64,000 nucleotides of DNA, taken from NCBI GenBank assembly GCA_016867395.1, contig VGJS01000002.1:62001-126000 (forward strand), written 5' to 3'. The position numbers and the translations under genes are program-made. Shown piece after piece: positions 5,323 to 64,000 of the stretch; position 1 is the stretch's first letter; the number at the start of each line of letters is the position of its first letter. A model generated the notes under the pieces. It had not been told where the DNA came from. It worked only from the letters and a program-made list of their open reading frames with translations, and did not search any database. This DNA is from Candidatus Handelsmanbacteria bacterium (lineage in GTDB: Bacteria > Latescibacterota > UBA2968 > UBA8231).

Positions 5323-5817
5323 ATGACCATAGGGGGCGCGGTGATCGCCGCCCTGTCCGGGGCCCTGCTGGGGCTGGGGGGGTTCACCTTCTACTACGGG
5401 CAGGGGCTCTCGTATTTTAGCCGCGACCCGGCGGCCTGCGTCAACTGCCACATCATGCAGCCGCAGTTCGACTCGTGGCAGAAGGCCAGCCACCACACCG
5501 CCGCCACCTGCGCCGACTGCCACCTGCCCCATGATTTCCTCCCCAAGTGGCTGTCAAAGGCCGAGAACGGCTTCTGGCATTCCCAGGGGTTCACCCTCCA
5601 GGACTTCCACGAGCCGATCTTCATCCGCCAGCGCAACCAGCGGGTGCTGCACGACAACTGCCTCAACTGCCATGGGCCCCTGGTCCACGAACTGCTGGCG
5701 GGGGCGACCACCGACGCCGACGCGATCAGCTGCGTCCATTGCCACCGCTCCGCCGGCCACGGCGAGGCCGTAGGCCTGGGCAAGTACGAGCCCCTTTCTT
5801 CCCGCAAAGAACCCTAA
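5323..5817 (+). CDS. nrfH: Cytochrome c nitrite reductase small subunit (NapC/NirT family, tetraheme)
   Basis: N-terminal TM anchor and four CxxCH (CVNCH, CADCH, CLNCH, CVHCH); immediately upstream of nrfA. ATG 5323 has SD gggagggagg. Confidence 0.92.
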
Positions 5818-5832
5818 CCAACAGGTGAGAGG

Positions 5833-37421: not shown

Positions 37422-37494
37422 CGGTGCATTCGGCTTGCCGGAATGGGGGAGCCTCGCGTAAATTGGCCTGCAATAATAATACGCCAACAACGAG

Positions 37495-42832: not shown

Positions 42833-45082
42833 ATGGCGAATAAAGGGAAAAGCGGGTTCTGGTATACCTTCGCAGCCACACTTTTCATCACCGCCTCGGG
42901 AAGCGCCGAGATCATCGTCATCGGCGGTGAGGGACGCCGCTGGGACAGCGGCGGTGGCGGCGTCCCCGCCACGGTGATCCGGACAGCGCGCGCGGTGGAG
43001 CGCACCAACGCCCCGGGCGGGGTCATCGACTATCAGCCGCCGGGGTACCCCAACTGGATCTTCCCGCAGCGCGCCGATACCACCCGCAACATCGCCGTGG
43101 GTTCCGACTCGCCCGAGCGGGGCGGGGGCATCACCTCGCCCAACACCCAGCGTATCCGCACCGACCTGCCCTCCATCATCGACGATGACGGCGACACCGC
43201 CCTGGATCTGCGGGCCGCCGCCGGCGGCCAGAGCGCCCGGGCGCTCGGCATCCTCATCGATCTGGATCTGGGTGCCCGTTTCGGGGTCAACCGGTTCAGG
43301 TTCTTCCCGCGCAACGCCGACCCGGCGTACCCGGCGCCGAATTTCCCCTTCCAGAACGATTTCATGCGGGGTTTCGAGATCTTCGTCAACGACGGCACGG
43401 CGGAAACACAGCGCGAGGGGATTCCGATCCTCCAGACGGTCGCGCTGGCGAACCAGAACACCGATGCCGTGGTCGATGTCCTCGTGCCCCCCCAGTATGT
43501 GCGCTATCTCCGGCTGAAGTCGCTGACCGCTGCTGGTTTCGAGATCGCCGAGCTGCAGGTGTACGGCACGGGGTACGTGCCGGAGGCGCGTTACGTCTCG
43601 AACATCTTCGACTTTGGCGATCTGGCGCTGCTGGGCAGGCTGCGCTGGGTAGGCGGCAGCCAGGGCGACCCCAACCGTTCGGCGATCCAGATCCGCACCC
43701 GCACTGGCCTCGATGCGCAGCCCGTCGAGTTCAACAAGGTCCGGCCTGGCGAGCGGATCTTCCGCCAGGGGGGCGGCGCCGGTGCCAGCACCCAGGGGTC
43801 CACGACCGCGGGCCTGCAGGTGCCCTGGCGGCGCGCCGAGGACGTCGGTGACGCCGGCCTCAGCCAGCTCATCGCCGAGGTGCTCGACAACGACGAGGTC
43901 GATGTGCGCGAGGCCTTCGAGCGCTTCAGGGGTCTCAGCGTCGACGAGCGCAATCTCATCACCCTCGACCAGGCCGACTACGGCAAGCTGCGGAATGAGG
44001 ACAAGGGCGACATCCGCGACGATTTGACCAATTGGAGCGGCTGGTCGCCGCCCTACGCCACCGCGTCCGGGCAGGTGGCGCCCGAGGCGATCGGCGACGG
44101 GGCCCTCGGGGTGCAGATCGCCTCTTCGGAGCCAAGGCGTTATTTCCAGTTCACCGCCGATTTCTCCAGTGAGGATTTCGAGGCTGCCGCGGGTCTGGGG
44201 GCCCTGGCCTTCGAGGTGCTCACCCCGCCCTTTGCCACGGAGCTGGTCGGTGAGATCCTCCCGCGGCAGACGGCGGTGGGGGCCAGGACGCACTTCACCT
44301 ACGCGGTGCGCAACCAGTCGCGGCCGGGCAGGGACCGGGGTTTCGACCAGCTGGTCATCGATACCCCGCTGCGGGCCGAAAGTGTCGGCCGGATCCGGAT
44401 CGTCCGGCCCGACGGCCAAGTCGCGGAAGCGGACTTCACCGGGCAGAGCCTGGTGTCCTTTCCCCTGGTCGACGGCGGGTTTGCCATCCGCGAGGCCGGC
44501 GAACGGCATCTCCTGATCAGTTTCCCCATGATCGCGGAGAGCGCCAGTCTGCTGACGGTGGAGTTCGCCAGCGGCGTGCTCCAGTACGGCACCACCTTTG
44601 CCGCGCGGGCCCGCAACAGCGAGTCGGGTTCCGACATCGGGCAGGAGGTGGTGGCCGGCAACGCTGCGGACCTGGGCACCGCGGGGCAGGAGGACCCCGA
44701 CGTCCAGCCTCTTGGTTCCCGGATCGTCGGCAATCTGTCGGTGCAGGTGCCGATCGCCCGCGACCTCCTGCTCAATGTGGTCGCCGAACCGCCGGTCTTC
44801 ACCCCGAACGGCGACGGGGTCAACGACCAGGGGGCCATCCGCTACGATATCACCAATATCGCCCGTCCCGCTCCGGTGGAGATCCTGATCCGGGATCTGA
44901 GCGGGCGTCTGGTGCGGCGCCTCTATGCGGCGGCCGACCTGAGCGGCCGCTATGCCCAGGGGTGGGACGGCCGCGACGATGCCGGGGGGCTGGTGCCCCC
45001 GGGAAGTTATCTCTACTCGGTGGAATTACGGGCGGGCACTGGCACCCAACGGCAACTCGGGGTGGTGGGGGTGGTGTACTGA
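42833..45082 (+). CDS. Secreted discoidin-like surface protein with C-terminal PNGDG/FlgD-like module
   Basis: 'FEIAELQVYGTGYVPEARYVSNIFDFGDLALLGRLRW'; C-terminus 'PPVFTPNGDGVNDQGAIRYDITN...DLSGRLVRRLYAAADLSGRYAQGWDGRDDAGGLVPPGSYLYSVEL...GVVGVVY'. Confidence 0.85.
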   Translation: MANKGKSGFWYTFAATLFITASGSAEIIVIGGEGRRWDSGGGGVPATVIRTARAVERTNAPGGVIDYQPPGYPNWIFPQRADTTRNIAVGSDSPERGGGITSPNTQRIRTDLPSIIDDDGDTALDLRAAAGGQSARALGILIDLDLGARFGVNRFRFFPRNADPAYPAPNFPFQNDFMRGFEIFVNDGTAETQREGIPILQTVALANQNTDAVVDVLVPPQYVRYLRLKSLTAAGFEIAELQVYGTGYVPEARYVSNIFDFGDLALLGRLRWVGGSQGDPNRSAIQIRTRTGLDAQPVEFNKVRPGERIFRQGGGAGASTQGSTTAGLQVPWRRAEDVGDAGLSQLIAEVLDNDEVDVREAFERFRGLSVDERNLITLDQADYGKLRNEDKGDIRDDLTNWSGWSPPYATASGQVAPEAIGDGALGVQIASSEPRRYFQFTADFSSEDFEAAAGLGALAFEVLTPPFATELVGEILPRQTAVGARTHFTYAVRNQSRPGRDRGFDQLVIDTPLRAESVGRIRIVRPDGQVAEADFTGQSLVSFPLVDGGFAIREAGERHLLISFPMIAESASLLTVEFASGVLQYGTTFAARARNSESGSDIGQEVVAGNAADLGTAGQEDPDVQPLGSRIVGNLSVQVPIARDLLLNVVAEPPVFTPNGDGVNDQGAIRYDITNIARPAPVEILIRDLSGRLVRRLYAAADLSGRYAQGWDGRDDAGGLVPPGSYLYSVELRAGTGTQRQLGVVGVVY

Positions 45083-45083
45083 C

Positions 45084-47900
45084 ATGGCAGCGAAAATGGG
45101 AGGAAACGGCTTGAGAAACCTGGTGAAGTTCGGCGTGACTCTCGGGTTGCTCGGCACCCTGATCGGCAGCTCCTCGTTCGGCCAGGACTACGGCGTGCGC
45201 CTGGGCCAGCGCCGCGGCGGCAGTGTGAGTTTCGAGCCGCGGGGGCCGGGGGTGATGTTCGGGGCGCTGGACCCGGCGATTAAGAAGTGGTATGTGCCGC
45301 AGGAGCTTTTCAACGAGTACCACTGGCGGCAGTGGGAATACTCCAACTACGCCCGGCAGGCCTACGCCCGCTACGTGAGCACCACCCTCGAAGGGGATCA
45401 TTTTTACGACTTCTACGGCAACTTCATCGGCCGGGGCTGGCTGGTCTACGACTGGCGGCAGAGCCAGCCCCAGCAGTTGGGGAACAGCATCTTCCAGAAC
45501 GCGCGCTTCAACAGCTGGTTCAGCTCCGTGACCATCGGCGGTGATTCGCAGGGGCAGTACCACTACGCCATCACCGTGGGCAATCAGCTGCGCACCACCC
45601 TGACCCCGTTGACCTTCTCCAAGCCCACCTTCAACGGGATTCAGATCGATTTCATGTCCGACAAGTACGCGGCCACGGTGCTGGCGGCGAGGGTGAGCGA
45701 TCCGATCATCGGCGAGACCCGCGAGGCCGAGACCCGGACCAACGTCACCAGCCTCTTTGGGGGTCGGGTCACCTCGCAACTGGGGGATTTCATCGAGGTG
45801 GGCGCCACCCTGGTGGACAGCCGCAACGCCAACACTACCCTCGACCTTTTCAGCGGCGACATGGTGGCCGGCAGCCTGACCGCCGGCCAGAGCACCACCC
45901 CGCTGACCGCCATCGCCATCGTGCTCAGCGACGACACCCCCGCCGACGGCGAAGGCGGGGCCGCGCTCTTCAGCCACGAGGTGCGGATCGTCAGCCGCAA
46001 CTTCGAAACCGGTGCCGAGCGCACCTACAACCTCCAGGAGGTGGTGCGGCCCGGATCGGAGTGGCCGGTGATCTTCGGCGGTTTCCGCCGCAGTGGGTTC
46101 CTCGCTGCCGATGGCGCCGAGCGCATCGTCCTCAACTACGACTTCAACGACCCGGCCTACATCGGCCCCGACCCCACCTCCATCATCGACGTGCAATTCG
46201 ATTACGTGCTGGCCAACGACTACCGGGTGGACCTGTGGTCCGACCGCCAGACCGGCCGGCGGCCCTCGCCATCCCCGCCGCTGAGCGCCGAGACCATCGA
46301 CGCCTCCAGGCCGGCCCTGCTGACCCTGCGCCGCGCCGATGGCAACGTCAAGGACATCTCCAATCTGCAGCGGGTGCGCTTCAACTACGGCCTGCCCACC
46401 GCCAATCTGGTGGGCGGCTTCACCATCGAGGGCACCAAGGTCGGCGGTTTCGATTTCTACGGGGAGTGGGACCGCAACCGGCGTTATTCCCAGTATCCCA
46501 ATGCCGCCCTCTTCACCGCCGGCAAGAAACACCGTATCTCCGCCGAGCAGGGCGACGCCTGGCACTTCAACCTGTCGCGCCAGTGGCACCCGTGGTTCCT
46601 CTACGGCGAGTCCTACCGCATCGACCCGTCGTACTCCACCACCTCGTACCTGGTCGATGCCAACGGCGATGTGCGCTACGACGACAGCCAGCGCCACCTC
46701 TACGAGTTCGTCGAAGACAACGACGACCAGGACCGCTTCCCGGATTGGAGCCGCTTCGGCACGGTCAATGACCGGCTGATCTTCCCCGGGCTCGACGAGA
46801 ACAACGACTTCATCAACGACTTCAATCAGAACGACAACGCCACGGTCAGCAGTTCGGTGCCCGATTACGAGGAACCCTTCCTCCGCTACCAGGTGGATCG
46901 GCCCGAGTTCCTCTTCGGCATCGACATGAACAACAACAACTGGATCGATCGTTTCGAGGATGACGACCTGCCGGATTTCCCCTACAAACCCGATCGCCGC
47001 GGTTACAATGCCTTCGCCGGGGTGAACGCGACGCCGGAACTGCGGGTCACCGCCGGACGCACCAGCGAAAAGATGATCTCCACCGAAAGGCGGAATCGCA
47101 CCAATTACCTGATGGTCACCCTCGATCAGGACTATGCCGGGTTGGGCCGCCTGCGGGTCTACAACCTGCTGAAACGCGCCGAGGACACCATCCCCGACGA
47201 CCGCCGCGAACTGACCGCCTTCGTCGATGGGCCGCCCATCCAGCCCGTGGTCGCGGATCTGTTGCCCGCTCAGGACACCTGGGTGAACACGGCGTGGCTG
47301 GGTTTCGACTACACCGGGACCAAGAACCTGAACGTCGTCAACAAATTCAAGTACGAGTTCTATGCCCAGCAGGCCGACGATCCGCGCGACCGCGAGGGGC
47401 GGCGGCTCGAGGACCGGACCAGCTTCTTGGGCCTGATCAACAAGGTCGACTACCTCCGCCGCTTTGGTCGCGTCCAGGTGCAGCCAAAGTTCAAGAGCGA
47501 GTACCTCCGCCAGACGCCCTTGCTGGTGCAGGAGGACAAACGCCGCCACTGGATGGGCGTTGGGCAGCTGGTGGCCCAGTTGCCGGCGCTCAAGCACACC
47601 CTGTTCCAGGCAGGCGTCGAGGCGCTGTGGTTCCGGGACCTGGTGCGGGACGAGGAGGCACTGGTCGCTGCCGGCCTGGCCGGGGAAACCGGCGACCGGC
47701 GCGCCACCACCGTGGCCCTGCAGCTGTCGAATACCTCCGACTACCAGGGTTACCGCCTGACCACCCAGTTGGGGTTGCGTTTCAGCCGCTTGCGGACCGA
47801 GATGGTGCGCGAAGGGTCGCAGCCGGGAAAGTTTGAGAAGATCTCCGAGGGCAGCAACGAGACCATAAGCTTCATCACCGTCTACGCTGGTGTGCAGTGA
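45084..47900 (+). CDS. Giant beta-barrel-like outer-membrane/surface protein, paralog 1
   Basis: Signal peptide (...GTLIGSSSFGQ-DYGVRLGQ); about 939 aa; paralogous with the next ORF; C-terminus 'SFITVYAGVQ'; one nucleotide after the previous gene. Confidence 0.85.
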   Translation: MAAKMGGNGLRNLVKFGVTLGLLGTLIGSSSFGQDYGVRLGQRRGGSVSFEPRGPGVMFGALDPAIKKWYVPQELFNEYHWRQWEYSNYARQAYARYVSTTLEGDHFYDFYGNFIGRGWLVYDWRQSQPQQLGNSIFQNARFNSWFSSVTIGGDSQGQYHYAITVGNQLRTTLTPLTFSKPTFNGIQIDFMSDKYAATVLAARVSDPIIGETREAETRTNVTSLFGGRVTSQLGDFIEVGATLVDSRNANTTLDLFSGDMVAGSLTAGQSTTPLTAIAIVLSDDTPADGEGGAALFSHEVRIVSRNFETGAERTYNLQEVVRPGSEWPVIFGGFRRSGFLAADGAERIVLNYDFNDPAYIGPDPTSIIDVQFDYVLANDYRVDLWSDRQTGRRPSPSPPLSAETIDASRPALLTLRRADGNVKDISNLQRVRFNYGLPTANLVGGFTIEGTKVGGFDFYGEWDRNRRYSQYPNAALFTAGKKHRISAEQGDAWHFNLSRQWHPWFLYGESYRIDPSYSTTSYLVDANGDVRYDDSQRHLYEFVEDNDDQDRFPDWSRFGTVNDRLIFPGLDENNDFINDFNQNDNATVSSSVPDYEEPFLRYQVDRPEFLFGIDMNNNNWIDRFEDDDLPDFPYKPDRRGYNAFAGVNATPELRVTAGRTSEKMISTERRNRTNYLMVTLDQDYAGLGRLRVYNLLKRAEDTIPDDRRELTAFVDGPPIQPVVADLLPAQDTWVNTAWLGFDYTGTKNLNVVNKFKYEFYAQQADDPRDREGRRLEDRTSFLGLINKVDYLRRFGRVQVQPKFKSEYLRQTPLLVQEDKRRHWMGVGQLVAQLPALKHTLFQAGVEALWFRDLVRDEEALVAAGLAGETGDRRATTVALQLSNTSDYQGYRLTTQLGLRFSRLRTEMVREGSQPGKFEKISEGSNETISFITVYAGVQ

Positions 47901-50842
47901 TGCAAAGGGTACTGCTGCTGGCGCTTCTCATCGGGCTGGGGGTTGCCAACTCCGCCTGGAGCCAGCCCGACTACGGCAATCGCCTGGGACACCGGGTGGG
48001 CGACCGGTCCCTCTTTTCGGCGGTGGGCACTGCCGTCCAGATCGGCAGCCTCGATCCCACCGTGCAGCGCTGGTACCTGCCGCAGGAACTCTTCCAGGAA
48101 TACGGCCGGCGGCAGTGGCGTTACACCAACTACGCGAAGGAGTATTTCCGCCGGTACCTGGAACGGTCCCAGGAGGGCTCCTATTTCTACGATTTCTACG
48201 GCGATCTGGTCACCCGCGGCTGGCTCATCTACAACTGGCGCCAGACCCAGCCGCTGGCCTTTGAAAGCAGCGCCATCACCAAGGATTCCCGCTATGCCAG
48301 CTGGTTCGACCGGCTGATCCTGTCTTCGGACGCCAGCGGCGACTACAGCTACACCATCATGGTGGGGGACGAGATCAACTCCACCCTCACCCCGATGACC
48401 TTCCGCAAGGCGGGCTTCAACGGCATCGCCACCAGCCTGGCGACTTCCCGTCTGCGCGCCACCACGCTCTTTTCCCGGCTCACGCTGCCAATCATCAACA
48501 TCGACGCCGACATTCCCACGGTGGCGGTCGAGAACGCCACCAACCTGAGCGCCGCCCGTGTCGAGGCCGACGTCGCCGGCCACCTGACCCTCGGTTTGAC
48601 GGCGGTCAACGCCCACAACGCCAATGGCTCGCGCGAGAGTTTCCGCGACAATCCCTTCAAGGGGCTGTTGACCTCGGGGCAACTCGACCGGCGCCTCAAC
48701 CACCTGGTGGTCCGCCTCAGCGACGATTCACCCGAGGACGAGGAGGGCGGGGCGGTGCTCTTCAGCGAGGAAGTGGAGATCACCACCTCGCTCCGCCGGC
48801 AGGTGGCCGTCGGCGACAGCATCCAGACGGTGCTGCGCGATACGCTGATCACCGGCAGCAGCATCGGGTTCAGGGGGGTGCGCGAGGGTGGCAAACTCCG
48901 GCGCGGCTTCCTCACCGCCAATGGCGCCGAGAGCATCAACCTCAAATACATCCTGGCCCCCGCGACCGGGGAAGGGGAGGAAGGGTCCCTTCGCCTGCTC
49001 CTGCAGCAGGGGTTGGGGCTCACCCTGGCCGAGGCCGAGGACGCCGTCACGGCCGTCAAGAACGTGCGTTTCCGGCTGGTGCTGGCCAACGACTACCGGG
49101 TGGAGGTGGCCTCCGACCGCCAGACCAATGCCGTGGGGCAGCCGCAGTTTCTGGTCATGAGCCGGGCGCCGGGAAACATCAAGAACAACCTCAACCAGCG
49201 CGAGGTCGTCTTCGACTACGGCCTGCCCACCGCCAACCAGATCTACGGGGTGACGGCCGAGATCCGGGATTTCAATGGCTTCGATTTCTACGGCGAGTTC
49301 AACGTCAATACCCAGTACCGCAAGTACCCCACCTCGAGCAGCACCAAACACCGCAGTATCGCCGGGATCGCCGGCGACCGGCATGCGGTGGGCTGGATGG
49401 CCAATGTCTCCCGGCGCGCGGGGCCCTGGCGTTTCTTTGCCGAAGGCTTCGGCATGGACGACGGCTATACGACCAGCATCCTGCCCGTCGATGGCCGCGG
49501 GGTGGTCGACTACTCCCCCGAAGCCAGGAGCAAACTCTATGATCTGGTCGACGACAACGATGACAACGACCGCCATCCGGACCAAAAGCGCATCTTCCAG
49601 GGAAGCCTGATTCCGATCCCCGGGCAGGATTTCAAGATCCGGCCCGAAGGCGTGGCCGATCCGGCGGTTTTCCCCGGGTACGACGAGAACGGCGATTTCA
49701 TCTCCGACTTCAACCAGAACAGCAACGGGGACCGCGAGAATTTCTTCCCGGACTACGAAGAGCCTTTTTTGCGCTACGGCAGCGACCGCCCCGAATTCCT
49801 CTTCGGCATCGACCTGAACAACAATGGCCGGGTCGATCGCTTCGAGAACGATGACCTGCCGGACTATCCCTACAAGAAGGACCACTGGGGGCACAACATC
49901 TATGCCAGCGTTGCCGTGGTCCCCGAACTCGATCTCACCCTGGGGCGTCTGGACCAGGAATTGCGCACGGCGCGCCGCGGCAACCGGACCTGGTACGGCA
50001 TGGCCGCCTACGAGCGGGACCGGCCCGAGTGGGGGCGGGTGCGGCTGTTCGGGATGACGCGCCTGGCAGAGGACACCATCGCCGACGATCTGTCGCAATG
50101 GATCATCCCGGAACCGGAATTCGGTCAGCCCGGGGATACGAGCGGCCGTAACCAGCCGGTGGCCGACCCCCTGGCGGCGGAAAACACCTGGATCCATTCC
50201 CTCAGCGGCGACTGGGAATACCACGGCTCGCGGCAGTGGGCCACGCGACACCGGGTCAAGTGGGAGACCTGGCGGCAGCGCGAGGCGGCGGTCGAGTACC
50301 AGCTCGATGCCTTGGGCGAGGTGGTGCGCGATGCCGAGGGCAAGGCGCTGGTGGCCTTCGATCCGCTGGGGCCGGAAGCCCGCAACGGGCGCGAGGTATC
50401 GGGATTCGTCGGCCTGATCGACAAGGCCGAGTACGTCTTCCGCTGGCAGCAACTGAGCTTCCTGCCGCGGGCAAAAAGCGAGTGGCTGAGCCAGACCCCC
50501 TTCAGCCGGACCCAGGCCAAACGGCGGTCCTGGGACGCGATCCTCACCTTGCTGGTTCAGTTCAGTCCCTTTCCCCACTCCCAGGTCCAGGTAGGATTCG
50601 AGCGGCGGCAGTACTTCGAGCTGCTGGCCGAGGAGAACGAGCTGCCGGTCGGTCGGCCCACCGGGGACTTCCGCGGTTCCGTGCTGGCTTGCCAACTCAC
50701 CAACACCAGACCCTACCTCGGTTACAGCCTCACCACCCAGTTGGGCATCCGCTACGACCGGCGCTCGCTGGAGGTCGCTGGCGCAGAACGCGATACCCGC
50801 ACCTCTGGGATGGCCTTCCTCTCCGTTTTCGCCGGGTTATAG
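47900..50842 (+). CDS. Giant beta-barrel-like outer-membrane/surface protein, paralog 2
   Basis: Signal peptide; 'DYGNRLGHRVGDR...LPQELFQEYGRRQWRYTNYAKEYFRRYLERSQEGSYFYDFYGDLVTRGWLIYNWRQTQPL' aligns to paralog 1; C-terminus 'FLSVFAGL'; overlaps the upstream stop (ATG/TGA). Confidence 0.87.
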   Translation: MQRVLLLALLIGLGVANSAWSQPDYGNRLGHRVGDRSLFSAVGTAVQIGSLDPTVQRWYLPQELFQEYGRRQWRYTNYAKEYFRRYLERSQEGSYFYDFYGDLVTRGWLIYNWRQTQPLAFESSAITKDSRYASWFDRLILSSDASGDYSYTIMVGDEINSTLTPMTFRKAGFNGIATSLATSRLRATTLFSRLTLPIINIDADIPTVAVENATNLSAARVEADVAGHLTLGLTAVNAHNANGSRESFRDNPFKGLLTSGQLDRRLNHLVVRLSDDSPEDEEGGAVLFSEEVEITTSLRRQVAVGDSIQTVLRDTLITGSSIGFRGVREGGKLRRGFLTANGAESINLKYILAPATGEGEEGSLRLLLQQGLGLTLAEAEDAVTAVKNVRFRLVLANDYRVEVASDRQTNAVGQPQFLVMSRAPGNIKNNLNQREVVFDYGLPTANQIYGVTAEIRDFNGFDFYGEFNVNTQYRKYPTSSSTKHRSIAGIAGDRHAVGWMANVSRRAGPWRFFAEGFGMDDGYTTSILPVDGRGVVDYSPEARSKLYDLVDDNDDNDRHPDQKRIFQGSLIPIPGQDFKIRPEGVADPAVFPGYDENGDFISDFNQNSNGDRENFFPDYEEPFLRYGSDRPEFLFGIDLNNNGRVDRFENDDLPDYPYKKDHWGHNIYASVAVVPELDLTLGRLDQELRTARRGNRTWYGMAAYERDRPEWGRVRLFGMTRLAEDTIADDLSQWIIPEPEFGQPGDTSGRNQPVADPLAAENTWIHSLSGDWEYHGSRQWATRHRVKWETWRQREAAVEYQLDALGEVVRDAEGKALVAFDPLGPEARNGREVSGFVGLIDKAEYVFRWQQLSFLPRAKSEWLSQTPFSRTQAKRRSWDAILTLLVQFSPFPHSQVQVGFERRQYFELLAEENELPVGRPTGDFRGSVLACQLTNTRPYLGYSLTTQLGIRYDRRSLEVAGAERDTRTSGMAFLSVFAGL

Positions 50843-50851
50843 GAGCGGCGA

Positions 50852-52588
50852 GTGAGCGGGGTTGCCCCAGCCCCGGGGTGGATCATCAATCGGCCGGCCG
50901 ACCTGTGTTTCTTCATTGGCACCCCCTTGGCCTGCCTCTTCGTCCTGCTGCTCGCCTCGCAGCATTTCGCCTCCGCCGACATCGCCCTGTTCGTGCTGGC
51001 GTTCTTCGCCGTCGGCCACCACCTTCCCGGCCTGATGCGCGCCTACGGGGAGCAGGAGCTTTTTGCCCGGTACCGGGCCCGTTTCCTCGTCACCCCGATC
51101 CTGGTTGCCCTGCTGGTGGGGTGGAGTGTCTTCAACGGCCATCTGGGGTTTTTTATCTTCCTCGCCCTGTGGGACCTGTGGCATTTCTTCATGCAGCATT
51201 TCGGTTTCATGCGTATCTACGAGATGAAATGGCGCCGACCCTCGCGCCACAGCGCGCGCCTCGATTGGCTGTTGAGCGCGGCCTGGCTCGGCTACGTGGT
51301 CGTCGCCAGCCCCCACTATCTGATCAACTTCCTCGAGCGCTGCCACCGCTACGGCTTCGGCCTGTACACCTGGATTGAACCCGAATGGGTGGTACATTTC
51401 GGCAGCGCCGTCGGGTATTTCGCCCTCGCCATCACCTTCGTCTATGCCGCCAATGTGGTGCGAGAACGGCGGCAGGGACTGCCGGTCGTCTGGCCCAAAC
51501 TGGCGATCACCGCCATCACCGTTGGCACCTCGTACTTCGCCTACATCGTCCTGCAGGATATCCTCCTGGGCTACGCGATCATCGCCATGGCCCACGACAT
51601 CCAGTACTACGCCATCGTCTGGATCTACAACAACGGGGTCCTGAAGCGCTCAGAAGCGCTGGGGTCCTCGTTTTTCCGCTATCTGTTCCGCGACGGCCGT
51701 TTCCGCATCGTCCTGATCTACGTGGGGCTGATCCTGGCCTATGGCGGGGTGGAGGTGGTGGCCCGGTCCACCCAGAACTACCTCGTCTACGACCTGGTGA
51801 AGGTATTGATCGCCACCTCCGCTTTCCTCCATTACTATTACGATGGTTTCATGTGGAAGGTGCGAAAGAAGGAGATCCGGCAGAATCTGGCCGCGGGGGT
51901 CGAGGGCACCGGAGAGGCCCCCTGGCGGTCGCGGTGGCAGGCCTGGCTGGAACTGCGGCAACAACGTTGGTCGGCTTTCCCCTACCTGTTCGAAACCGGG
52001 AAACAACTGGTCTACTTTGGGGTGCCCATCGTCTTCCTGGCCTGGACCGATGTCTCCTATTCCCAAACCGAGGTGGCCACGCGGGAATACCTGGTTCGTC
52101 TGGCCCCCTCGCTGGCCACTGCCCAGGACGGGTTGGGGGTCGCCTACACCCGTGCCGGCCGCCTCGAGGAGGCCATCGCTGCCCACCAGCGGGCCATCGC
52201 CATCGCCCCGGAGTGGGCGCCGGCCCATACCCACCTGGGCATCGCCCTCTCGGGCAAAGGGCAAAGGGACGAGGCCATCCGCCAGCATCTGGAGGCGATC
52301 CGGCTGGACCCGCGCCTGGCCCAGGCCCGCTACAATCTCGGTGTCGAATACTTCCAGGCCGGCCAGACAGAAAACGCCCGGGCCGCCTTCGCCGCGGCCA
52401 TCGACCTGGATCCCTCGTACGCCCATGCCCACCAGGCGCTGGGGCAGGTGTACCTGCGCCTGGGAAGGCAGCGGGAGGCCGCCGCCGCCGCCGCGAAGGC
52501 GGCAGAGCTGCAGCAATCCTCCCGGCGGCGAGGGATGGGACAGAGCGCCATGCCGTGGGCCACGGGGACACCGCTAGGGGAGCATTAA
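50852..52588 (+). CDS. His-rich multi-pass membrane protein fused to C-terminal TPR repeats
   Basis: GTG start 9 nt after the previous gene; 'AVGHHLPGLMRAY', 'LWDLWHFFMQHFGFMRIYEMK', 'AMAHDIQYYAIVWIYNN', 'FLHYYYDGFMWKVRKKE'; TPR domain at C-terminus. Confidence 0.85.
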   Translation: MSGVAPAPGWIINRPADLCFFIGTPLACLFVLLLASQHFASADIALFVLAFFAVGHHLPGLMRAYGEQELFARYRARFLVTPILVALLVGWSVFNGHLGFFIFLALWDLWHFFMQHFGFMRIYEMKWRRPSRHSARLDWLLSAAWLGYVVVASPHYLINFLERCHRYGFGLYTWIEPEWVVHFGSAVGYFALAITFVYAANVVRERRQGLPVVWPKLAITAITVGTSYFAYIVLQDILLGYAIIAMAHDIQYYAIVWIYNNGVLKRSEALGSSFFRYLFRDGRFRIVLIYVGLILAYGGVEVVARSTQNYLVYDLVKVLIATSAFLHYYYDGFMWKVRKKEIRQNLAAGVEGTGEAPWRSRWQAWLELRQQRWSAFPYLFETGKQLVYFGVPIVFLAWTDVSYSQTEVATREYLVRLAPSLATAQDGLGVAYTRAGRLEEAIAAHQRAIAIAPEWAPAHTHLGIALSGKGQRDEAIRQHLEAIRLDPRLAQARYNLGVEYFQAGQTENARAAFAAAIDLDPSYAHAHQALGQVYLRLGRQREAAAAAAKAAELQQSSRRRGMGQSAMPWATGTPLGEH

Positions 52589-52595
52589 TTCTTTC

Positions 52596-52624
52596 TTGAC
52601 AACACCTACCCTCTCGTTTAAATT
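52596..52624 (+). promoter_or_regulatory. Sigma70-like promoter
   Basis: TTGACA (52596-52601), 17-nt spacer, TAAATT (52619-52624), in an AT-rich gap upstream of the 52688 gene. Confidence 0.5.
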
Positions 52625-52687
52625 AAAGGCCGTGGATTTCTCAGTACAGTTGTATCCCAATCCCAATACCTATCAACGGAGGAAGGC

Positions 52688-53596
52688 ATGAAAAAGGCAG
52701 TACTGTTCGCCGCCGCTTCGGTGTTCTGCTTCAGCAACGTGGCCATGGCACACGTTCCCGAAGGGCAGGTGTTCGCCGCCTGGCAGTGGCCCAGTTCCCA
52801 TCTTCCCAGCCTGGACGGCGATATTTCCGAATGGAATGTCATTCCGTCCGAATACTTTATCGACATCTTCCAGACCTCGGTCGCCGAGGGTGACGTGGGC
52901 CGCGAAATCGATACGTCGAACCTGAACTTCCGCTTTGCCATGGGCTGGAACAACGAACTCGACCGCATTTACTACGTCTACGACCGCTTCGACAACGTGT
53001 GGGACCGCGATGCGGGCGGTTTTGGCTGCTGCGGCCAGGACGACAGCATCGAGATCGGCATCGATGCCGACCACAGCGGCGACTTCTTCTGGGCTTTCGA
53101 GGGCACCGATGAGGAGTTGAAGCGCAACCGCGGCCGTCAGGCCCAGACCAGCCATTACCGTTGGCCCGCCCTGGCTCCCTTCGGGTGGTCGTGGTTCTGG
53201 ATGAGCAGCGCCGATTGGTTCGACAAAGAGCCCTACCAGTGCTGCGCCACCTCCTTTACCCTGAACGGCACCCATGGCGGCGAAAGCACCTTCCAGGCCG
53301 AGTGGTACACCGTGGCTTGGGACGACTTCAACTACCAGGGCCCGGAAGTGAGCGTGCGCCACGACTTCGTCGAGGGCGAGATCATCGGTGCCGGCTTGCA
53401 GGTGGTCGACAACGACAACGGTCCCTCCGAGGATGACCCCCGCACCGCCAAATGGGTGCTGGGCGGCCAGTCCGATATCTTCGGCAACGCCAGCTCCTTC
53501 AGTGACTTCATCCTGCTGCCGGTCGATGCGGATCGCTTGCCGACCGCGGTGGAGAACGACAGCTGGGGCAATATCAAGGCCTCCTTCGCCCAGTGA
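52688..53596 (+). CDS. Secreted protein, CBM9-like/DOMON-type fold suspected
   Basis: Signal peptide MKKAVLFAAASVFCFSNVAMA; 'SLDGDISEWNVIP...' typical of CBM9-like extracellular domains; SD cggaggaagg; own promoter and terminator. Confidence 0.8.
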   Translation: MKKAVLFAAASVFCFSNVAMAHVPEGQVFAAWQWPSSHLPSLDGDISEWNVIPSEYFIDIFQTSVAEGDVGREIDTSNLNFRFAMGWNNELDRIYYVYDRFDNVWDRDAGGFGCCGQDDSIEIGIDADHSGDFFWAFEGTDEELKRNRGRQAQTSHYRWPALAPFGWSWFWMSSADWFDKEPYQCCATSFTLNGTHGGESTFQAEWYTVAWDDFNYQGPEVSVRHDFVEGEIIGAGLQVVDNDNGPSEDDPRTAKWVLGGQSDIFGNASSFSDFILLPVDADRLPTAVENDSWGNIKASFAQ

Positions 53597-53630
53597 GGTT
53601 TTGAACGGTTTTCCCGTCGATTGATGGTGA

Positions 53631-53666
53631 GGAGGGCAGATCGCGGTTGATCTGCCCTCCTTTTTT
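53631..53666 (+). terminator. Rho-independent terminator
   Basis: Perfect 12-bp stem ggagggcagatc-gcggtt-gatctgccctcc followed by T6. Confidence 0.93.
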
Positions 53667-53707
53667 ATATTTCCTGTGGTGCAGTGCCGCCTCTGGGAGG
53701 TGCCACG

Positions 53708-55633: not shown

Positions 55634-55656
55634 GTGGCGCGGGAGAGGAGATAACG

Positions 55657-57567: not shown

Positions 57568-57577
57568 GGAGCGCCAC

Positions 57578-60244
57578 ATGGCGATGGCAAGCCGGTGCCC
57601 CCTGGTCCTGGTCCTGCTGGTGGTGGCGGGCGCCTCGGCCCAGCCGCGGGGTTACCGCCTCACCAGCGACCAGGTCCTGGTGGCGGGCCGCACTCACTGG
57701 GAAAACTGGTCCTTCGCCGAAGGCACGGTGGAACTGGCTGCCGATGGCAGTGTGCGTCCGCATCTGGTCCGGCGGCAGACCAACGCCTCGCTGGACATCC
57801 TGGAATTCCTCCGCCGGCACCCCCCCAAGTCGATAGGGGGCAAGAAACCCGCTGAGCTGACCCTGCTCGACGCGGTACAGGCCGGCTCGAACCGCCAGGG
57901 GGTGACGGCCCTGCTCGATGGCGACCTGCGCACCTACTGGGAGCCCGATCCACCAACCCCCGGGATCGATCTGGCCTCGCAGTGGTGGTTCAATCTCGAC
58001 CTCGGCCGCTTCGTCTTCATCCGCAAGATCGTGCTGCGCTTCGTCGACGAGGATCTGGGAGATCCCTTCCTGCTTTTCGATCTCCTGGTTTCGGACGGCT
58101 TGAAGCCGGGCAATGTCCTGGCCTCGACCAGCCCCCAGTACACCACGGTGCTCCGCACCCTCAAGCGCAACAAGACCCAGCGGGTCTTTGAGGTCGAACT
58201 CGGGGCCGCGGCACAACTGGCCGGCCGGAGCGGGGCCCGCGACGCGAGTGATGGGGGAGGGTCGGTGGCGGTGGGCGCCGGCAACGAACTGGGCAGCCTC
58301 GGGGCCCGTTTCGTGCAGCTGGTGGTCAATGGCAGCGATTTCGCACGGGGCCGCGAGGTCAGCGAGGCGGTTTACCAGGAGCTGGGGCCCCAGGAACGCG
58401 GCGCCGTGGAATACCACAAACGGCTGAGCGAGGGCCGCGAGGTGGTGGTCAGGCCCGAGGTGTACGAGCAGCTCGAGCCGGCCCGACGGGGGGCAGTGCG
58501 TTATTTCCGCCGCGAACTGCCCCGTCTGGCGGAACTGGAGGTTTGGGCCGAGGGGGACGAACTGGTCAATGGCACCATCGAGCGGGGCGGATACATCTCC
58601 TCGACCCAGGTCGTGAACGGCGCCAGTTTCGTCGACGGCGATATCGACAGCTACGCCAGCATGAACCAGGAGATCGGGGGCACGATCCAGGAGGAGCGGG
58701 AGATCTTCCTCGATCTGGGCTCCTTCTACTGGATCGACGGCCATCGCCTGGCCTACAACCCCACCAATTACCACTCCTGGCGCTTCGCCAACTATCGCCT
58801 CGATTTCTCGGATGGCTCCCTCGCCCCCAACGGCACCCTCAAATGGAAAGAGGTGGTGAACCGCGAGCAGTCGCTCGCCAAGGTGGTGGGCGAGGGCAAC
58901 GATTTCGCGCTGGTGAAGGCGCGGTTCTTCCGCATGCGTTATACCCCCCTCCTTACCACCTTTCCCTCCCAACTTGGGGTGATCGCCGAGCTGCAGCTCT
59001 ACGGGCAGGGGTACCAGCCCGAGGTAGTTCTCGAATCGGACCTCATCCGGCTGGGCGGCAGCCGCAATCTGCTCGACATCAGTTGGGAGGACGAAACCCC
59101 GCCAGGGACCCGGGTCTGGCTGCAGACCCGTACCGGCAACGAACTGGGGCAGGTGCTGCACTATTTCAAAAAGGACGGCACCGAGGTCAGCGAGGAGCAG
59201 TACGGCAAGCTCCTGTCCCTCTTCAAGGGCGAGGTGGTGGCCGAAGAAGTGGCCGGCAACGACTGGAGCGACTGGAGCGCTCTCTACGAGGTCGCCGCGG
59301 GCAGCCTGATCACCTCGCCCTCGCCGCGGGAGTACCTCAAGATTCGCGCCACGCTGTCCTCTTCCTCGCCCGAGATCCACGCCGCCTTGCGCGGCATCAC
59401 CCTCAACTTTGCCGGTCCGGTGGCGCAGAGCCTCGTCGGTGAGGTGTCGCCCCTGCAGGTGGCGGACCTGGGCCGTGAGACGCGGTTCTCGCTGTACGTG
59501 CGGCCCCGCTTCGCGGCCGGCGATCCCGGCTTCGACGGCCTGTTGCTCAAGGCGCCAACGGGGATGTCCCTGCGGTACGCCGGTTTGTACCTCGGGACCG
59601 AAAGCGAACTGGCCCGTGGCGAGGAGGGGCCCCAGGCACAGGCCCTGGCCGGGGTGGAGGCGGAGCCCACCAGCGCCGACAGCCTCCAGATCGCCTTCCC
59701 GCTGGTGCAGCCGCCGGCCAAGGACCAGGTGCTGCGCCTCGATTTCTACACTACCCTCTATGCCACCGGAGCGGTGCTCGAGGCCTCGCTGCAGAACGGC
59801 CGCAACGGCGGTGGCCAATGGCAGCGGGTCGATCCAGGAAACGCCGCCGCGGCGGTGCCCGGCAACTCGACCACCCTGGTGGGCATCGCCCGGCACAAGG
59901 AGGTGATCGCCGATCTGAAACTGATCCCGGCGCTCTTCACCCCCAACGGCGACGGCATCAACGACGAGTTGCGGGTGGAGTTCTCGGTGGTGCTGCTGGG
60001 CGACCAGAGCCCGGTGCGGATCGAGGTGCGCGACCTGGGCGGACGCCTGGTGCGGCGCCTGGGGGGGGCGCTATCGGCTGGCGGCGGGACGGGCCGGAAT
60101 GCGGTGGCCTGGGACGGGCAGGATAAAGACGGGGCGCTGGTGCCTCCGGGACTGTACGCGGTCCGGTTGTGGCTGGAAGCCGACACCGAGGGAGCCGGGC
60201 TGTCGCGCCCGCAGTTGCTGCGCCTGGTGTCGCTGGCATACTAA
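57578..60244 (+). CDS. Two-discoidin-like/PNGDG surface protein, family A
   Basis: Signal peptide; 'GYRLTSDQVLVAGRTHWENWSF'; 'YWEPDPPTPGIDLASQWWFNLDLGRFVFIRKIVLRF'; 'ALFTPNGDGINDELRVEFSVVLLGDQSPVRIEVRDLGGRLVRRL...LVSLAY'. Confidence 0.88.
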   Translation: MAMASRCPLVLVLLVVAGASAQPRGYRLTSDQVLVAGRTHWENWSFAEGTVELAADGSVRPHLVRRQTNASLDILEFLRRHPPKSIGGKKPAELTLLDAVQAGSNRQGVTALLDGDLRTYWEPDPPTPGIDLASQWWFNLDLGRFVFIRKIVLRFVDEDLGDPFLLFDLLVSDGLKPGNVLASTSPQYTTVLRTLKRNKTQRVFEVELGAAAQLAGRSGARDASDGGGSVAVGAGNELGSLGARFVQLVVNGSDFARGREVSEAVYQELGPQERGAVEYHKRLSEGREVVVRPEVYEQLEPARRGAVRYFRRELPRLAELEVWAEGDELVNGTIERGGYISSTQVVNGASFVDGDIDSYASMNQEIGGTIQEEREIFLDLGSFYWIDGHRLAYNPTNYHSWRFANYRLDFSDGSLAPNGTLKWKEVVNREQSLAKVVGEGNDFALVKARFFRMRYTPLLTTFPSQLGVIAELQLYGQGYQPEVVLESDLIRLGGSRNLLDISWEDETPPGTRVWLQTRTGNELGQVLHYFKKDGTEVSEEQYGKLLSLFKGEVVAEEVAGNDWSDWSALYEVAAGSLITSPSPREYLKIRATLSSSSPEIHAALRGITLNFAGPVAQSLVGEVSPLQVADLGRETRFSLYVRPRFAAGDPGFDGLLLKAPTGMSLRYAGLYLGTESELARGEEGPQAQALAGVEAEPTSADSLQIAFPLVQPPAKDQVLRLDFYTTLYATGAVLEASLQNGRNGGGQWQRVDPGNAAAAVPGNSTTLVGIARHKEVIADLKLIPALFTPNGDGINDELRVEFSVVLLGDQSPVRIEVRDLGGRLVRRLGGALSAGGGTGRNAVAWDGQDKDGALVPPGLYAVRLWLEADTEGAGLSRPQLLRLVSLAY

Positions 60245-60264
60245 AAACAAGGTGGGGTGCGGAG

Positions 60265-62850
60265 ATGATCACAAGAGCAACACTGGCAGTGCTGATCCTG
60301 GCCGGCGTCGCGGCGCTGGCTCAGGATCGCGGCTACCGGATCAGCGGCAACCAGGTGGTCGTGGACGCCCGGGAGCACTGGCGGAACTGGAGTTATCCCC
60401 CCGGCACGCTGGAACTCACCGCGCCGGGTGAGGTGCGGGCACGGCGATGGCGGCGCCAGGTCAACGCGGTCACCGACATCGTCGACTACCTGCGCCTCAA
60501 CCCGCCGGTGGCGTTGGCGGACCGGAAACCGGAGGAGATCACCGTCGCCGACGCGGTGCAGGCTGGCTCGCGGGTCGAGCGGGTGCCGGCGCTATTCGAC
60601 GGCGACCCCAGCACCTACTGGGAGCCCGTACCGCTGGAGCCGGGCATGGACCTGGCGAGCCAATGGTGGCTGGTGGTGGACCTGGGCCGAGTGGTGTTCG
60701 CCGACCGCATCGTGCTGCGTTTCGTCGAGGAGGAGCTGGGCGATCCCTTCCTGCTTTTCGATGTGCTGGTTTCCGACGGCACGCGGCCGGCGCGGGTGCG
60801 CGGGGCCGCCAACCCGGAGTACCGCACGGTGCTGCAGACCCTGCAGCGCAACAAGACCCAACGCACCTTCGAGATCGACCTCAGCGCGCTCGATCCGAGC
60901 ATCGGCGGGGAGGGACTGCGCTTTGTGCAGGTAGTGGTCACCGGCAGCGATGCCGAACACGGCCGCGAGGTGGACCTGGCAGCCTATGAGGGCTTGCCGG
61001 CGGCCGAACGCGGGGCGGTGGAATACTACAAGCGGCTCGGGGCGGGGCAGGAGGTGGCGGTCCGGCCCGAGGTGTTCGCTCAGCTCGACGAGCAGCGCCG
61101 GGGAGCCGTGCGCTACTTCCGCCGCGAACGGCCGCGCCTGGCCGAGCTGGAGGTGTGGAGCGAGGGGGACGAGCTGCTGGCCGGCACCTTCGAGCGCCGG
61201 GGCAGCGTCGCCCTCCCCGGCGGCGAGGACGTCAACCTGCGCAGTTTCGTCGACGGCGACCTGGTCACCGACTCCAACCTGATCATCGGCAAGGTGGTGC
61301 AGGTGGCCGACCCCGAGCGCAGCCTGATCTTTGACCTGGGGTCCACCTTCTGGGTGGACACCCAGCGCATGGCCTACGGGCGCGGGTTGTACCGCGGCAG
61401 CATGGCCGATTACCGCCTCGACTTCTCCGACGGGACCCAGGCTGCCGACGGCAGCATCAAATGGACCAGGGTGGTGGACCGCCGGCAGGCACAGCAGAGC
61501 GGGGTCCGGTTCGACGGCAACTCCTTCGCCCCCATCCAAGCCCGCTTCTTCCGCCTCCAGTACACCCTCTCGGCCGGCGGCCACCAGACCGCCAACCTGG
61601 CCGAGATCCAGCTCTATGGCCGCGGTTACCAGCCCCGGGTCGAACTGGAGTCGGATCTAATCCGGCTGGGCGCCAGCCGCAACCTGTTGCGCCTCGACTG
61701 GGACGCCCAGACCCCGCCCGGAACCCAGGTCCAGATCCAGACCAGGACCGGGGATGACCTCCAGGAGGAACTCCACTATTTCAAAAAGGACGGCACCGAG
61801 GTCAGCGCCGAACAGTACAAGAAATTGTTATCCATCTTCAAGGGGGAGATCGTTGCCCGGGAGGTGGAGGGCAGCGGCTGGAGCGACTGGTCCGAGGCCT
61901 ATACCGATCCTGCCGGCAGCCCGGTGACCTCGCCCTCGCCGCGCGAATTCCTGAAGATCCGGGCCGTCCTGGTATCCGCTGATCCGGAGGTCAGGGCCAC
62001 CCTGCGCCGGGTACGCCTGCATTTTGCCGATCCAGTGGCCCAGGCGCTGGTGGGGGAGATCGATCCAGTGCAGACCCCGCAACTGGCGCGGCCCCAGCCC
62101 TTCTCACTGTACCTCAAGCCGGTCTTCGCCTCGGCGGATCTGGGTTTCGACCAGCTCCTGCTGCGGGTGCCTGCGGATATGGCGCTCGCGCTGGAAGGCT
62201 TCTACGCCGGCAAGGAGGCCGATTTCGCCGAACCCCAACTCGATCGACTCCGGCTGGCCGGGGTGCAGCAGCTGCCCACCGGCGCCGACTCGCTCCTGCT
62301 CTCCTTCCCGGCGCTCGGTCCCCGCTCGGGCGTCGAGTTGTTGCGGCTGGACTTCCGCAGCGCCCTCTTCGCCACCGGCGCCGTGGTGGAGGCAGCCCTG
62401 CAGCAGGCCGGTGCCGGCGCCGGGCAGTGGCAGCGGGTCGACGCCGGCGACGCCTATGCCCGGGTCGAGAGCAATTCGCTGACCCTGCTCGGGGTGGTGG
62501 AGCACAAACAACTGATCGACCAGGTCGAGGTCCGCTCCCCCGTATTCACCCCCAATGGCGACGGGATCAACGACGCGGTGGAGTTCGGGTTTTCGGTGGT
62601 GTTGTTGGGGGACAACAGCCCGGTGGTGGTCGCCATCCACGACCTGGCCGGGAATCTGGTGCGGCGTCTGGAGAGCGTGGGCAATACCACCGGCACGGGT
62701 CACCGTCGGATCGCCTGGGACGGGCGCGATCACCAGGGCCGGCTGCTGCCGCCGGGGACCTACCTGGCCCGGCTGGCCCTGGAGGCCGATACCCGCGGCG
62801 CGAAGGTATCCCGCAGCAGTGTGGTGCGGCGGGTGGCGCTGATCTACTGA
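60265..62850 (+). CDS. Two-discoidin-like/PNGDG surface protein, family A
   Basis: 'GYRISGNQVVVDAREHWRNWSY'; 'YWEPVPLEPGMDLASQWWLVVDLGRVVFADRIVLRF'; 'PVFTPNGDGINDAVEFGFSVVLLGDNSPVVVAIHDLAGNLVRRL...RVALIY'. Confidence 0.88.
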   Translation: MITRATLAVLILAGVAALAQDRGYRISGNQVVVDAREHWRNWSYPPGTLELTAPGEVRARRWRRQVNAVTDIVDYLRLNPPVALADRKPEEITVADAVQAGSRVERVPALFDGDPSTYWEPVPLEPGMDLASQWWLVVDLGRVVFADRIVLRFVEEELGDPFLLFDVLVSDGTRPARVRGAANPEYRTVLQTLQRNKTQRTFEIDLSALDPSIGGEGLRFVQVVVTGSDAEHGREVDLAAYEGLPAAERGAVEYYKRLGAGQEVAVRPEVFAQLDEQRRGAVRYFRRERPRLAELEVWSEGDELLAGTFERRGSVALPGGEDVNLRSFVDGDLVTDSNLIIGKVVQVADPERSLIFDLGSTFWVDTQRMAYGRGLYRGSMADYRLDFSDGTQAADGSIKWTRVVDRRQAQQSGVRFDGNSFAPIQARFFRLQYTLSAGGHQTANLAEIQLYGRGYQPRVELESDLIRLGASRNLLRLDWDAQTPPGTQVQIQTRTGDDLQEELHYFKKDGTEVSAEQYKKLLSIFKGEIVAREVEGSGWSDWSEAYTDPAGSPVTSPSPREFLKIRAVLVSADPEVRATLRRVRLHFADPVAQALVGEIDPVQTPQLARPQPFSLYLKPVFASADLGFDQLLLRVPADMALALEGFYAGKEADFAEPQLDRLRLAGVQQLPTGADSLLLSFPALGPRSGVELLRLDFRSALFATGAVVEAALQQAGAGAGQWQRVDAGDAYARVESNSLTLLGVVEHKQLIDQVEVRSPVFTPNGDGINDAVEFGFSVVLLGDNSPVVVAIHDLAGNLVRRLESVGNTTGTGHRRIAWDGRDHQGRLLPPGTYLARLALEADTRGAKVSRSSVVRRVALIY

Positions 62851-62863
62851 AATGGAGGGGCCA

Positions 62864-64000
62864 ATGCGGTGTGTGCAGGTGTTGTTGGCGACGTGGCTGC
62901 TGGCCGGCCAGGTGTTGGCCCAGGGACACCAACTCCTCGGCGATCAGGTGGTGGTGGGCAGCCGGCACTGGCCCCAGTGGGAATTTGCCCCTGGTACCGT
63001 CGATTTCACTGCACAGGGAGGGGTGCGGGCCCACCGGCTGCGCAAAGACATCAACGCCACCGGGGATATCCTCGACCATCTGCGCCGGTACCCCCCCAGC
63101 GCGCTGGAGAAGAAGAAACCCGAGGAGCTGACCCTGCTGGACGCGGTCCAGGCCGGCTCCAACCGCCAGGGGGCCGCCCTGGCGCTGGACGGTGACCCGG
63201 CCACCTACTGGGAGCCCGCCCCGCCGGGGGAAGGCGTGGACCTGGCCACCCAGTGGTGGTTCGTGGTGGACCTGGGCAGATTCGTTTTCGCCCGCCGGAT
63301 CGTCCTGCGTTTCGCCGACGAGCAGCTCGGCGACCCCTTCCTGCTCTTCGATGTGCTGGTCTCGGACGGGACCAAACCGGCGCGGGTGGCCGGGGCCGCC
63401 AATCCCGAATACAAGACCGTGCTGCGCATGTTGCAGCCCAACAAGAGCCAGCGGGTGTTCACCATCGACCTGCAGGGGCTCGACCGCGAGGTGCCCGGCG
63501 AGGGGATCCGCTTCGTGCAGGTGGTGGTTACCGGCAGCGACGGCGTCCGGGGCCGCGAGGTATCGGAAGCCGAGTACCTTAGCCTGGCCCCGGGTGAGCA
63601 GGGCGCGGTGGAGTACGCCAAACGCCTCGCCGACGGCGGCGAGATCCAGGTGGACCAGGATCTCTACGAGGAACTGCCAGCCGAACGACGGGGCAGCATC
63701 CGCTTCTACCGCCGGGAACGGCCGCGCCTGGGCGAGCTGGAGGTCTGGACCGAGGGGGACGAGATCCTCGGCGGCACCCTGGCGCGGGGTGGCTCGGCCA
63801 GCGCTCCCCTGCAGACCCTGAGTCTGGGGGGGTTCATCGACGGCGACCTGGAGAGTTTCTCGCGGCCTTTCGTCGGGGTGGTGTCGCTTGGCGCCGATAA
63901 CGACCGCGAGGTGTTCTTCGACCTGGGTTCCTCCTACTGGATCGACAGCCAGCGCCTGGTCTATGGCCCCTTCCGGACCACCTTCGGGGATTATCACCTC
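62864..64000 (+). CDS. Discoidin-like surface protein, family A (truncated by window end)
   Basis: Absent from the ORF track because it has no stop in the window. ATG 62864 is open for 379 codons: MRCVQVLLATWLLAGQVLAQGHQLLGDQVVVGSRHWPQWEF...YWEPAPPGEGVDLATQWWFVVDLGRFVFARRIVLRF. Confidence 0.85.
   Translation, partial: MRCVQVLLATWLLAGQVLAQGHQLLGDQVVVGSRHWPQWEFAPGTVDFTAQGGVRAHRLRKDINATGDILDHLRRYPPSALEKKKPEELTLLDAVQAGSNRQGAALALDGDPATYWEPAPPGEGVDLATQWWFVVDLGRFVFARRIVLRFADEQLGDPFLLFDVLVSDGTKPARVAGAANPEYKTVLRMLQPNKSQRVFTIDLQGLDREVPGEGIRFVQVVVTGSDGVRGREVSEAEYLSLAPGEQGAVEYAKRLADGGEIQVDQDLYEELPAERRGSIRFYRRERPRLGELEVWTEGDEILGGTLARGGSASAPLQTLSLGGFIDGDLESFSRPFVGVVSLGADNDREVFFDLGSSYWIDSQRLVYGPFRTTFGDYHL

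Follow-up and report, generated by a model that had tools for sequence, protein, structure and literature searches.

A modular barrel–lectin surface cassette present in dozens of copies in Latescibacterota

The window analysed here, a stretch of 64,000 nucleotides (nt) on contig C2 (C2:62001-126000) of a Latescibacterota genome, carries one copy of a modular barrel–lectin surface cassette that exists dozens of times over in this phylum. The cassette is built around large outer-membrane β-barrel proteins (BAR) and secreted proteins with a discoidin-type domain (DIS); it spans window positions 32.7-64 kb and continues to ~67.4 kb (Table 1). On the + strand the order is DIS, BAR1, BAR2, a membrane protein with tetratricopeptide repeats (TPRs), a secreted protein termed P5 and then five further DIS. 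The opposite flank, largely transcribed from the - strand, encodes FG-GAP/ASPIC, pentapeptide-repeat, TPR-lipoprotein and parvulin-lipoprotein products. The home genome (4.94 Mb) is 97.5% complete with 5.7% contamination, and metagenome-assembled genomes (MAGs) may be contaminated. Gene starts were assigned by a simple caller based on codon usage, and several carry alternatives; within this uncertainty, the compact four-gene run and tight DIS array of the initial annotation, made from the DNA letters alone, have the genes and gaps described there. Following the contig beyond 64 kb completes the last DIS at ~850 amino acids (aa). The parvulin and TPR proteins placed upstream in that annotation do carry lipoboxes, but their genes are transcribed divergently from the + strand run.

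Table 1. Features of the cassette and its surroundings, in window coordinates. Fractions compare 20 barrel loci with 20 random 20-kb stretches of one closed chromosome.
Feature	Position	Strand	Remarks
DUF6785/DUF6784 multi-spanning inner-membrane protein, loose associate	30791..32740	+	7/20 barrel loci vs 2/20 random
FG-GAP + UnbV_ASPIC secreted protein	32756..34312	-	family in 10/20 barrel loci vs 1/20 random
Secreted pentapeptide-repeat protein	34378..35946	-	similar proteins (family f12) adjoin orthologous loci
TPR lipoprotein	35943..37646	-	lipobox in sequence, Pfam; family in 14/20 barrel loci vs 1/20 random
FG-GAP + UnbV_ASPIC secreted protein	37537..39153	+	
Parvulin (PPIC rotamase) lipoprotein, core part	39156..40868	-	lipobox; Rotamase_2 1.4e-24; 15/20 barrel loci vs 0/20 random
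FG-GAP + UnbV_ASPIC, lipoprotein-like	40873..42693	-	
DIS, cognate of BAR1: CBM32/F5_8-like domain, Ig-like domains, type-IX-like C-terminal domain (FTPNGDG...GVVY)	42833..45082	+	
BAR1, predicted outer-membrane β-barrel, 925 aa	45123..47900 (start possibly 45084)	+	AlphaFold
BAR2, paralogous predicted outer-membrane β-barrel, 980 aa	47900..50842 (start possibly 47897)	+	'second in tandem' clade
Polytopic His-containing membrane protein with C-terminal TPRs, not core	50852..52588	+	
P5, secreted CBM9-like protein, core part	52688..53596	+	15/20 barrel loci vs 0/20 random
DIS paralogue, 631-649 aa	53738..55633 (start possibly 53684)	+	
DIS paralogue, 636 aa	55657..57567	+	
DIS paralogue, long subtype, 886 aa	57584..60244	+	F5_8 type C
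DIS paralogue, long subtype	60289..62850 (start possibly 60262)	+	F5_8 type C 3.9e-8
DIS paralogue, long subtype	62873 (or 62852)..64000, off window	+	complete (~850 aa) in G000:C2, ending near C2:127425

BAR1 and BAR2 are paralogues with ~40% identity. Neither matches Pfam or NCBIfam even at E 1, the barrel has no match in PHROGs, and a profile search of PDB chains gave no solved homologue. As the initial annotation supposed, the predicted fold is a barrel: the AlphaFold2 model of BAR1, made with an alignment of 99 relatives (mean predicted local distance difference test score (pLDDT) 84.6; predicted TM-score 0.81), has ~23-24 transmembrane strands when counted from its DSSP assignment, with short turns at one side and long ones at the other. 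From this alternation, and from the C-terminal strand, which in known outer-membrane proteins ends in the periplasm, two large inserts (~238-423 and 501-624) are predicted to lie outside the cell. The insert at 501-624 is rich in D and N, with EF-hand-like loops such as D601-E612 (DMNNNNWIDRFE), and may bind calcium. It is the most conserved region of the barrel family, with a mean pairwise identity of 0.60 and 39 columns above 0.9, compared with 0.42 in the strands and 0.29 in the other outer loops; a pre-barrel segment of ~130 aa is also conserved. Foldseek comparison with the PDB gives generic large barrels alone (LptD, SlpA, MtrB, FimD, SprA) at TM-scores by query length of at most 0.26, so that BAR has no close solved analogue. 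A relationship to SprA was rejected (hhalign probability 0.5%), as was a TonB receptor: neither BAR1 nor BAR2 matches the Plug domain (PF07715), and Plug proteins occur elsewhere in the same genomes. The barrels thus stay outside the TonB receptors and other well-characterised families, as first suggested, and in sequence terms BAR is unlike any catalogued family, being absent from every protein family library used here. A second, divergent barrel class is present in the same genome (L017, L023, L024 and L025, on C1, C48, C84 and C117), where as many as three barrels stand in a row ahead of a ~1,090-aa TPR protein and a parvulin, and the small partners are different.

The DIS proteins combine a fold resembling carbohydrate-binding module family 32 (CBM32) with immunoglobulin (Ig)-like domains, and are not of the SusD fold. 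In the AlphaFold model (pLDDT 91.6), one domain of DIS resembles CBM32-type modules by structure comparison (TMt 0.72-0.76, root-mean-square deviation ~4), with weak profile matches too, and one window DIS matches the F5/8 type C family of Pfam at 3.9e-8, a discoidin-type galactose-binding fold. The proteins end in a FlgD_ig/CHU_C domain with the motif FTPNGDG, which is common to all six window DIS where complete and exceeds the CHU_C gathering score in three. These shared ends bear out the paralogy first proposed for the surface proteins, with the refinement that they fall into two subtypes (starts at 42833, 53684 and 55657 as against 57584, 60262 and 62852). TIGR04131 matches 34/75 DIS at E<=0.001; of the 190 complete DIS, 165 terminate with [VL][AV]Y, whereas only five have a lipobox-like motif. 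P5 is CBM9-like by a weak similarity: CBM9_1 (PF06452) is found in 6/45 members, at best with 3.8e-6, and the window P5 has no match.

The arrangement recurs well beyond the window. Relatives were records named Latescibacterota, or Gemmatimonadetes/Gemmatimonadota together with one Woeseia, the last two taken as mislabelled or contaminated bins. The MAG named 'Gemmatimonas phototrophica' (L029, CAMAVQ010000008.1) has a locus whose BAR1 is 95% identical to that of the window, and probably represents a Latescibacterota bin; 'Woeseia sp.' (L088) also has a barrel contig and looks contaminated. Near BAR in 79 loci of other genomes, DIS was found in 68, P5 in 39, parvulin in 38 and TPR in 33. Directly upstream within 500 nt, 84 barrels had a DIS, 26 a further BAR and ten something else; once second-in-tandem barrels are set aside, DIS is directly upstream of 84/94. 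Two closed chromosomes encode 39 and 34 class-1 barrels, with a DIS within 10 kb of at least 39/39 and at least 32/34 of them (at least 71/73 together), compared with means of 6.7 and 4.6 barrels per chromosome after circular shifts of the listed DIS positions. On one closed chromosome, 20 barrel loci were compared with 20 random 20-kb stretches away from barrels. The loci contained 28 BAR, 59 DIS, 17 TPR, 16 P5, 15 parvulin and 13 FG-GAP genes; the random stretches contained one DIS, one TPR, one FG-GAP and neither P5 nor parvulin. DIS occurred in 20/20 loci against 1/20 stretches, P5 and parvulin each in 15/20 against 0/20. The cassette is not due to chance, since it recurs in 79 loci and its core parts are almost absent from the random stretches.

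A conserved surface system of barrel, DIS, parvulin and TPR proteins was anticipated in the initial annotation, which missed its scale (~35-40 copies per genome) and the CBM9-like P5 as a core part. The annotation also included the His-rich membrane-TPR protein and proposed synteny of the barrel pair, the DIS array and this gene as a check. Barrel and DIS are indeed conserved together, but the His-containing gene is found in 6/99 loci, all apparent orthologues of the window locus, and was rejected as a core part. Its product has repeated His motifs in the membrane segments (GHH, WHFFMQH, MAHD, LHYYYDG), fused to TPRs; the membrane part has no family match.

The initial annotation also overlooked that its twin barrels represent just one configuration within a larger barrel family. 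In a tree of 99 barrels the first tandem members group together (20/21 in a clade of 24), as do the second (20/21 in a clade of 23), and the extra 'single' barrels in these clades are mostly pairs split by a parvulin gene. This clustering points to a single old duplication whose two products have stayed paired in many genomes and at paralogous loci.

Across the phylum, barrels occur in 40/65 genomes, including 26/26 of the home family and members of several other classes, and are absent from 22/22 genomes of three sister families of the same class (families f2-f4, G020-G041). Many of these f2-f4 genomes have SprA and are close to complete. In 42/42 genomes BAR and full-length DIS either both occur or are both missing, E-values being per genome. 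DIS matches are strong in the 17 barrel-bearing genomes examined, though less so (1e-23 to 1e-30) in family f7, which seems to hold divergent barrels only; in the 25 barrel-less genomes there are weak matches only (1e-11 to 1e-14), taken as the C-terminal domain alone. SprA is found in 41 of the same 42 genomes irrespective of barrels, the sole exception (G016) being 67% complete and also without BAR and full-length DIS.

SprA belongs to the type IX secretion system (T9SS), for which SprA, PorV, PorU and PorP/SprF were searched. The home genome has a single-copy SprA (594.7 bits, cut-off 200) and PorV (258 bits, PorV_fam cut-off 90); SprA is a separate gene of ~2,030-2,170 aa. Directly upstream of PorV lies the C-terminal part of a PorU-like sortase, which scores 302 bits against a model cut-off of 420 in a reading frame cut at the locus edge. 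SprA and PorV were present in 3/3 genomes checked. PorP/SprF (PF11751) gave no match in the three genomes, with control genomes equally silent, and BAR has no Pfam match to PF11751. With SprA, PorU and PorV present, the T9SS rather than the barrel probably exports DIS. Published accounts restrict the T9SS to Bacteroidota (PMC12618676) or, more widely, to the Fibrobacteres-Bacteroidetes-Chlorobi superphylum (PMC11205867), and no link of Latescibacteria to type IX secretion was found in the papers searched. The 2015 Latescibacteria genome paper mentions non-specific porins and Plug-domain receptors (PMC4454575). In Flavobacterium, a TPR lipoprotein and a peptidyl-prolyl isomerase belong to the translocon (PMC10994853). 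PorP-like barrels appear to anchor type B cargo (PMC9143113).

The co-divergence of barrel and partners was measured in 31 non-redundant loci holding at least two DIS, by correlating barrel distances with partner distances. The barrel tracks its upstream DIS with rho 0.67 (0.57-0.75 on 80% subsampling), compared with 0.28 (0.22-0.35) for a different DIS from that locus. Splitting the upstream DIS gives 0.68 for the body and 0.20 for the C-terminal domain. When all pairs are used, 90-column blocks of the body, matched in size to the C-terminal domain, reach 0.44-0.72 (median 0.68) against 0.25 for that domain; in an earlier, smaller analysis the values were 0.37-0.55 and 0.27, respectively. The size-matched comparison does not support the C-terminal domain as the barrel's recognition partner, a role that was considered and rejected. 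Parvulin tracks the barrel at 0.53 (n=13 loci). These patterns support a putative cognate BAR-DIS(-P5) unit, in which the C-terminal signal of DIS would be a shared, generic export tag.

The interpretation favoured here, with a little better than even confidence, is that BAR holds a cognate, T9SS-delivered lectin DIS at the cell surface as an anchor or receptor. This would parallel PorP/SprF with type B cargo, or SusC/SusD, but with a barrel family that none of the sequence comparisons made here relates to theirs. DIS would cross the inner membrane by means of the Sec signal peptide seen in its sequence, and the outer membrane through the cell's T9SS (SprA, PorU, PorV), presumably using the type-B-like C-terminal domain. 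Folding of the barrel into the outer membrane would probably be assisted by the dedicated parvulin lipoprotein, whose gene is linked to that of the barrel. The CBM32-like body of the upstream DIS, which co-diverges with the barrel, may then dock on it and be held as a receptor or anchor complex, most likely at the conserved, calcium-type face predicted to be extracellular. P5 and the further DIS paralogues could complete a glycan-recognising assembly, and BAR1 and BAR2 probably act together, possibly as a heteromer, since the old duplication has been kept as a pair. The initial suggestion that the barrels export or anchor DIS divides: anchoring gains support, while export is disfavoured by the presence of SprA and PorU-PorV and by the generic C-terminal signal. 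Three points weigh against the anchor or receptor interpretation. Co-divergence also follows from co-inheritance without contact, and P5 indeed tracks the barrel almost as well as DIS does (0.74 against 0.79 in the same subset of 17); the C-terminal domain of the window protein scores 22 bits, under the 35-bit TIGR04131 cut-off; and each barrel is matched by several DIS, which leaves the majority of DIS without a barrel to themselves.

A possible alternative, entertained tentatively, shares the BAR-DIS complex and adds transport: in a SusC/SusD-like uptake system, the lectin would capture a glycan or other ligand that the barrel admits to the periplasm, with specificity diversified over 30-40 paralogues. 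The numbers of barrels on the two closed chromosomes, the glycan-binding-type folds (CBM32-like, CBM9-like) and the co-divergence of barrel with DIS body rather than signal would suit such a system. So would a barrel size near that of TonB-dependent receptors, a pre-barrel segment that could plug the lumen, and the modest enrichment of DUF6785 permease-like genes (7/20 against 2/20 loci). However, the barrels lack the TonB plug match that other proteins of the same genomes have, and a Pfam census of 43 flanking genes at barrel loci gave a mixed set without recurrent glycoside hydrolases or transporters; an identity as catabolic islands resembling polysaccharide utilisation loci was rejected on this census. 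The more specific proposal, that BAR-DIS is an independently evolved SusC/SusD counterpart without a TonB plug, with a lectin delivered by the T9SS and not by the lipoprotein route, and in 30-40 copies per genome the main outer-membrane receptor and uptake repertoire in a major uncultured lineage, is slightly more doubtful still.

It is unlikely that BAR is a Latescibacterota counterpart of PorP/SprF, pulling type B-like cargo from SprA via the C-terminal domain. The gene order is that of the Flavobacterium cargo-shuttle pairs, where the type B cargo gene lies directly upstream of its PorP/SprF gene (PMC12618676); SprA is present and PorP/SprF undetected, a weak absence given the silent controls. 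Yet the barrel hardly co-diverges with the C-terminal domain (0.20-0.25 against 0.67), is far larger than the 273-position PorP_SprF model, and is missing from families that retain SprA. A matrix or S-layer role, in which barrels tether a regular DIS lattice or sheath and not individual receptors, seems quite improbable: the 59 DIS for 28 BAR in 20 loci would fit it, as would structural matches pairing BAR with Deinococcus SlpA/SDBC and DIS with RbmA, a protein of the biofilm matrix, but these matches are weak (TM-scores 0.10-0.29) and the sequence diversity among copies favours many specificities over one lattice. That the barrel itself exports DIS is very improbable in spite of their adjacency and strict co-occurrence, as SprA and PorV are present in the three genomes checked with PorU beside PorV in the home genome, BAR has no profile similarity to SprA, and the C-terminal domain does not co-diverge with the barrel.

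Several neighbouring genes were noted in passing. Between 32756 and 42693, three FG-GAP/UnbV_ASPIC proteins alternate with the TPR and pentapeptide-repeat proteins. Frequently encoded close to barrel loci, the DUF6785/DUF6784 protein may act as a transporter of the inner membrane. At window 5341-7254, a gene with a CVNCH heme motif (NrfH/NapC-like) is followed by a probable cytochrome partner in a respiratory-type cluster.

The cassette gives a first handle on how the cell surface is built in an uncultured phylum, where closed genomes hold many paralogues of one barrel–lectin module; its copies would supply the cell with a large set of surface receptors or anchors. With it, the cognate cargo-barrel pairing of the T9SS would reach outside both Bacteroidota and the PorP/SprF family, and SprA-retaining sister families that naturally lack the module offer a clean comparative test of its function.

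Four known systems come closest to the cassette. Like Deinococcus SlpA/SDBC, which are among its best Foldseek matches, BAR is a very large outer-membrane barrel, but the TM-score is at most 0.26, there is no sequence relation and the partners differ. SprA/Sov is likewise a giant outer-membrane barrel of the same cell and a generic Foldseek match, from which BAR is separate, without profile similarity. With SusC/SusD, the cassette has in common a large, amplified outer-membrane barrel and a cognate surface protein of glycan-binding type; unlike SusC/SusD, BAR has no TonB plug, no catabolic enzymes recur, and DIS is not a lipoprotein, having a putative T9SS-type signal and a CBM32-like fold in place of those of SusD. 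TonB-dependent receptors and SusC are 22-strand barrels with TonB-coupled transport; the strand count of the BAR model is ~23-24. From the PorP/SprF systems of the Bacteroidota T9SS it differs in the size of BAR (~925 aa, no PF11751 match) and its large, calcium-type inserts predicted to be extracellular, in co-divergence with the cargo body and not the signal, and in the parvulin and CBM9-like genes of the cassette. With these same type B cargo and PorP/SprF pairs it shares a Sec signal, a putative C-terminal signal bearing FTPNGDG, a barrel gene directly downstream of the cargo (84/94), many paralogous pairs and T9SS parts in the genome.

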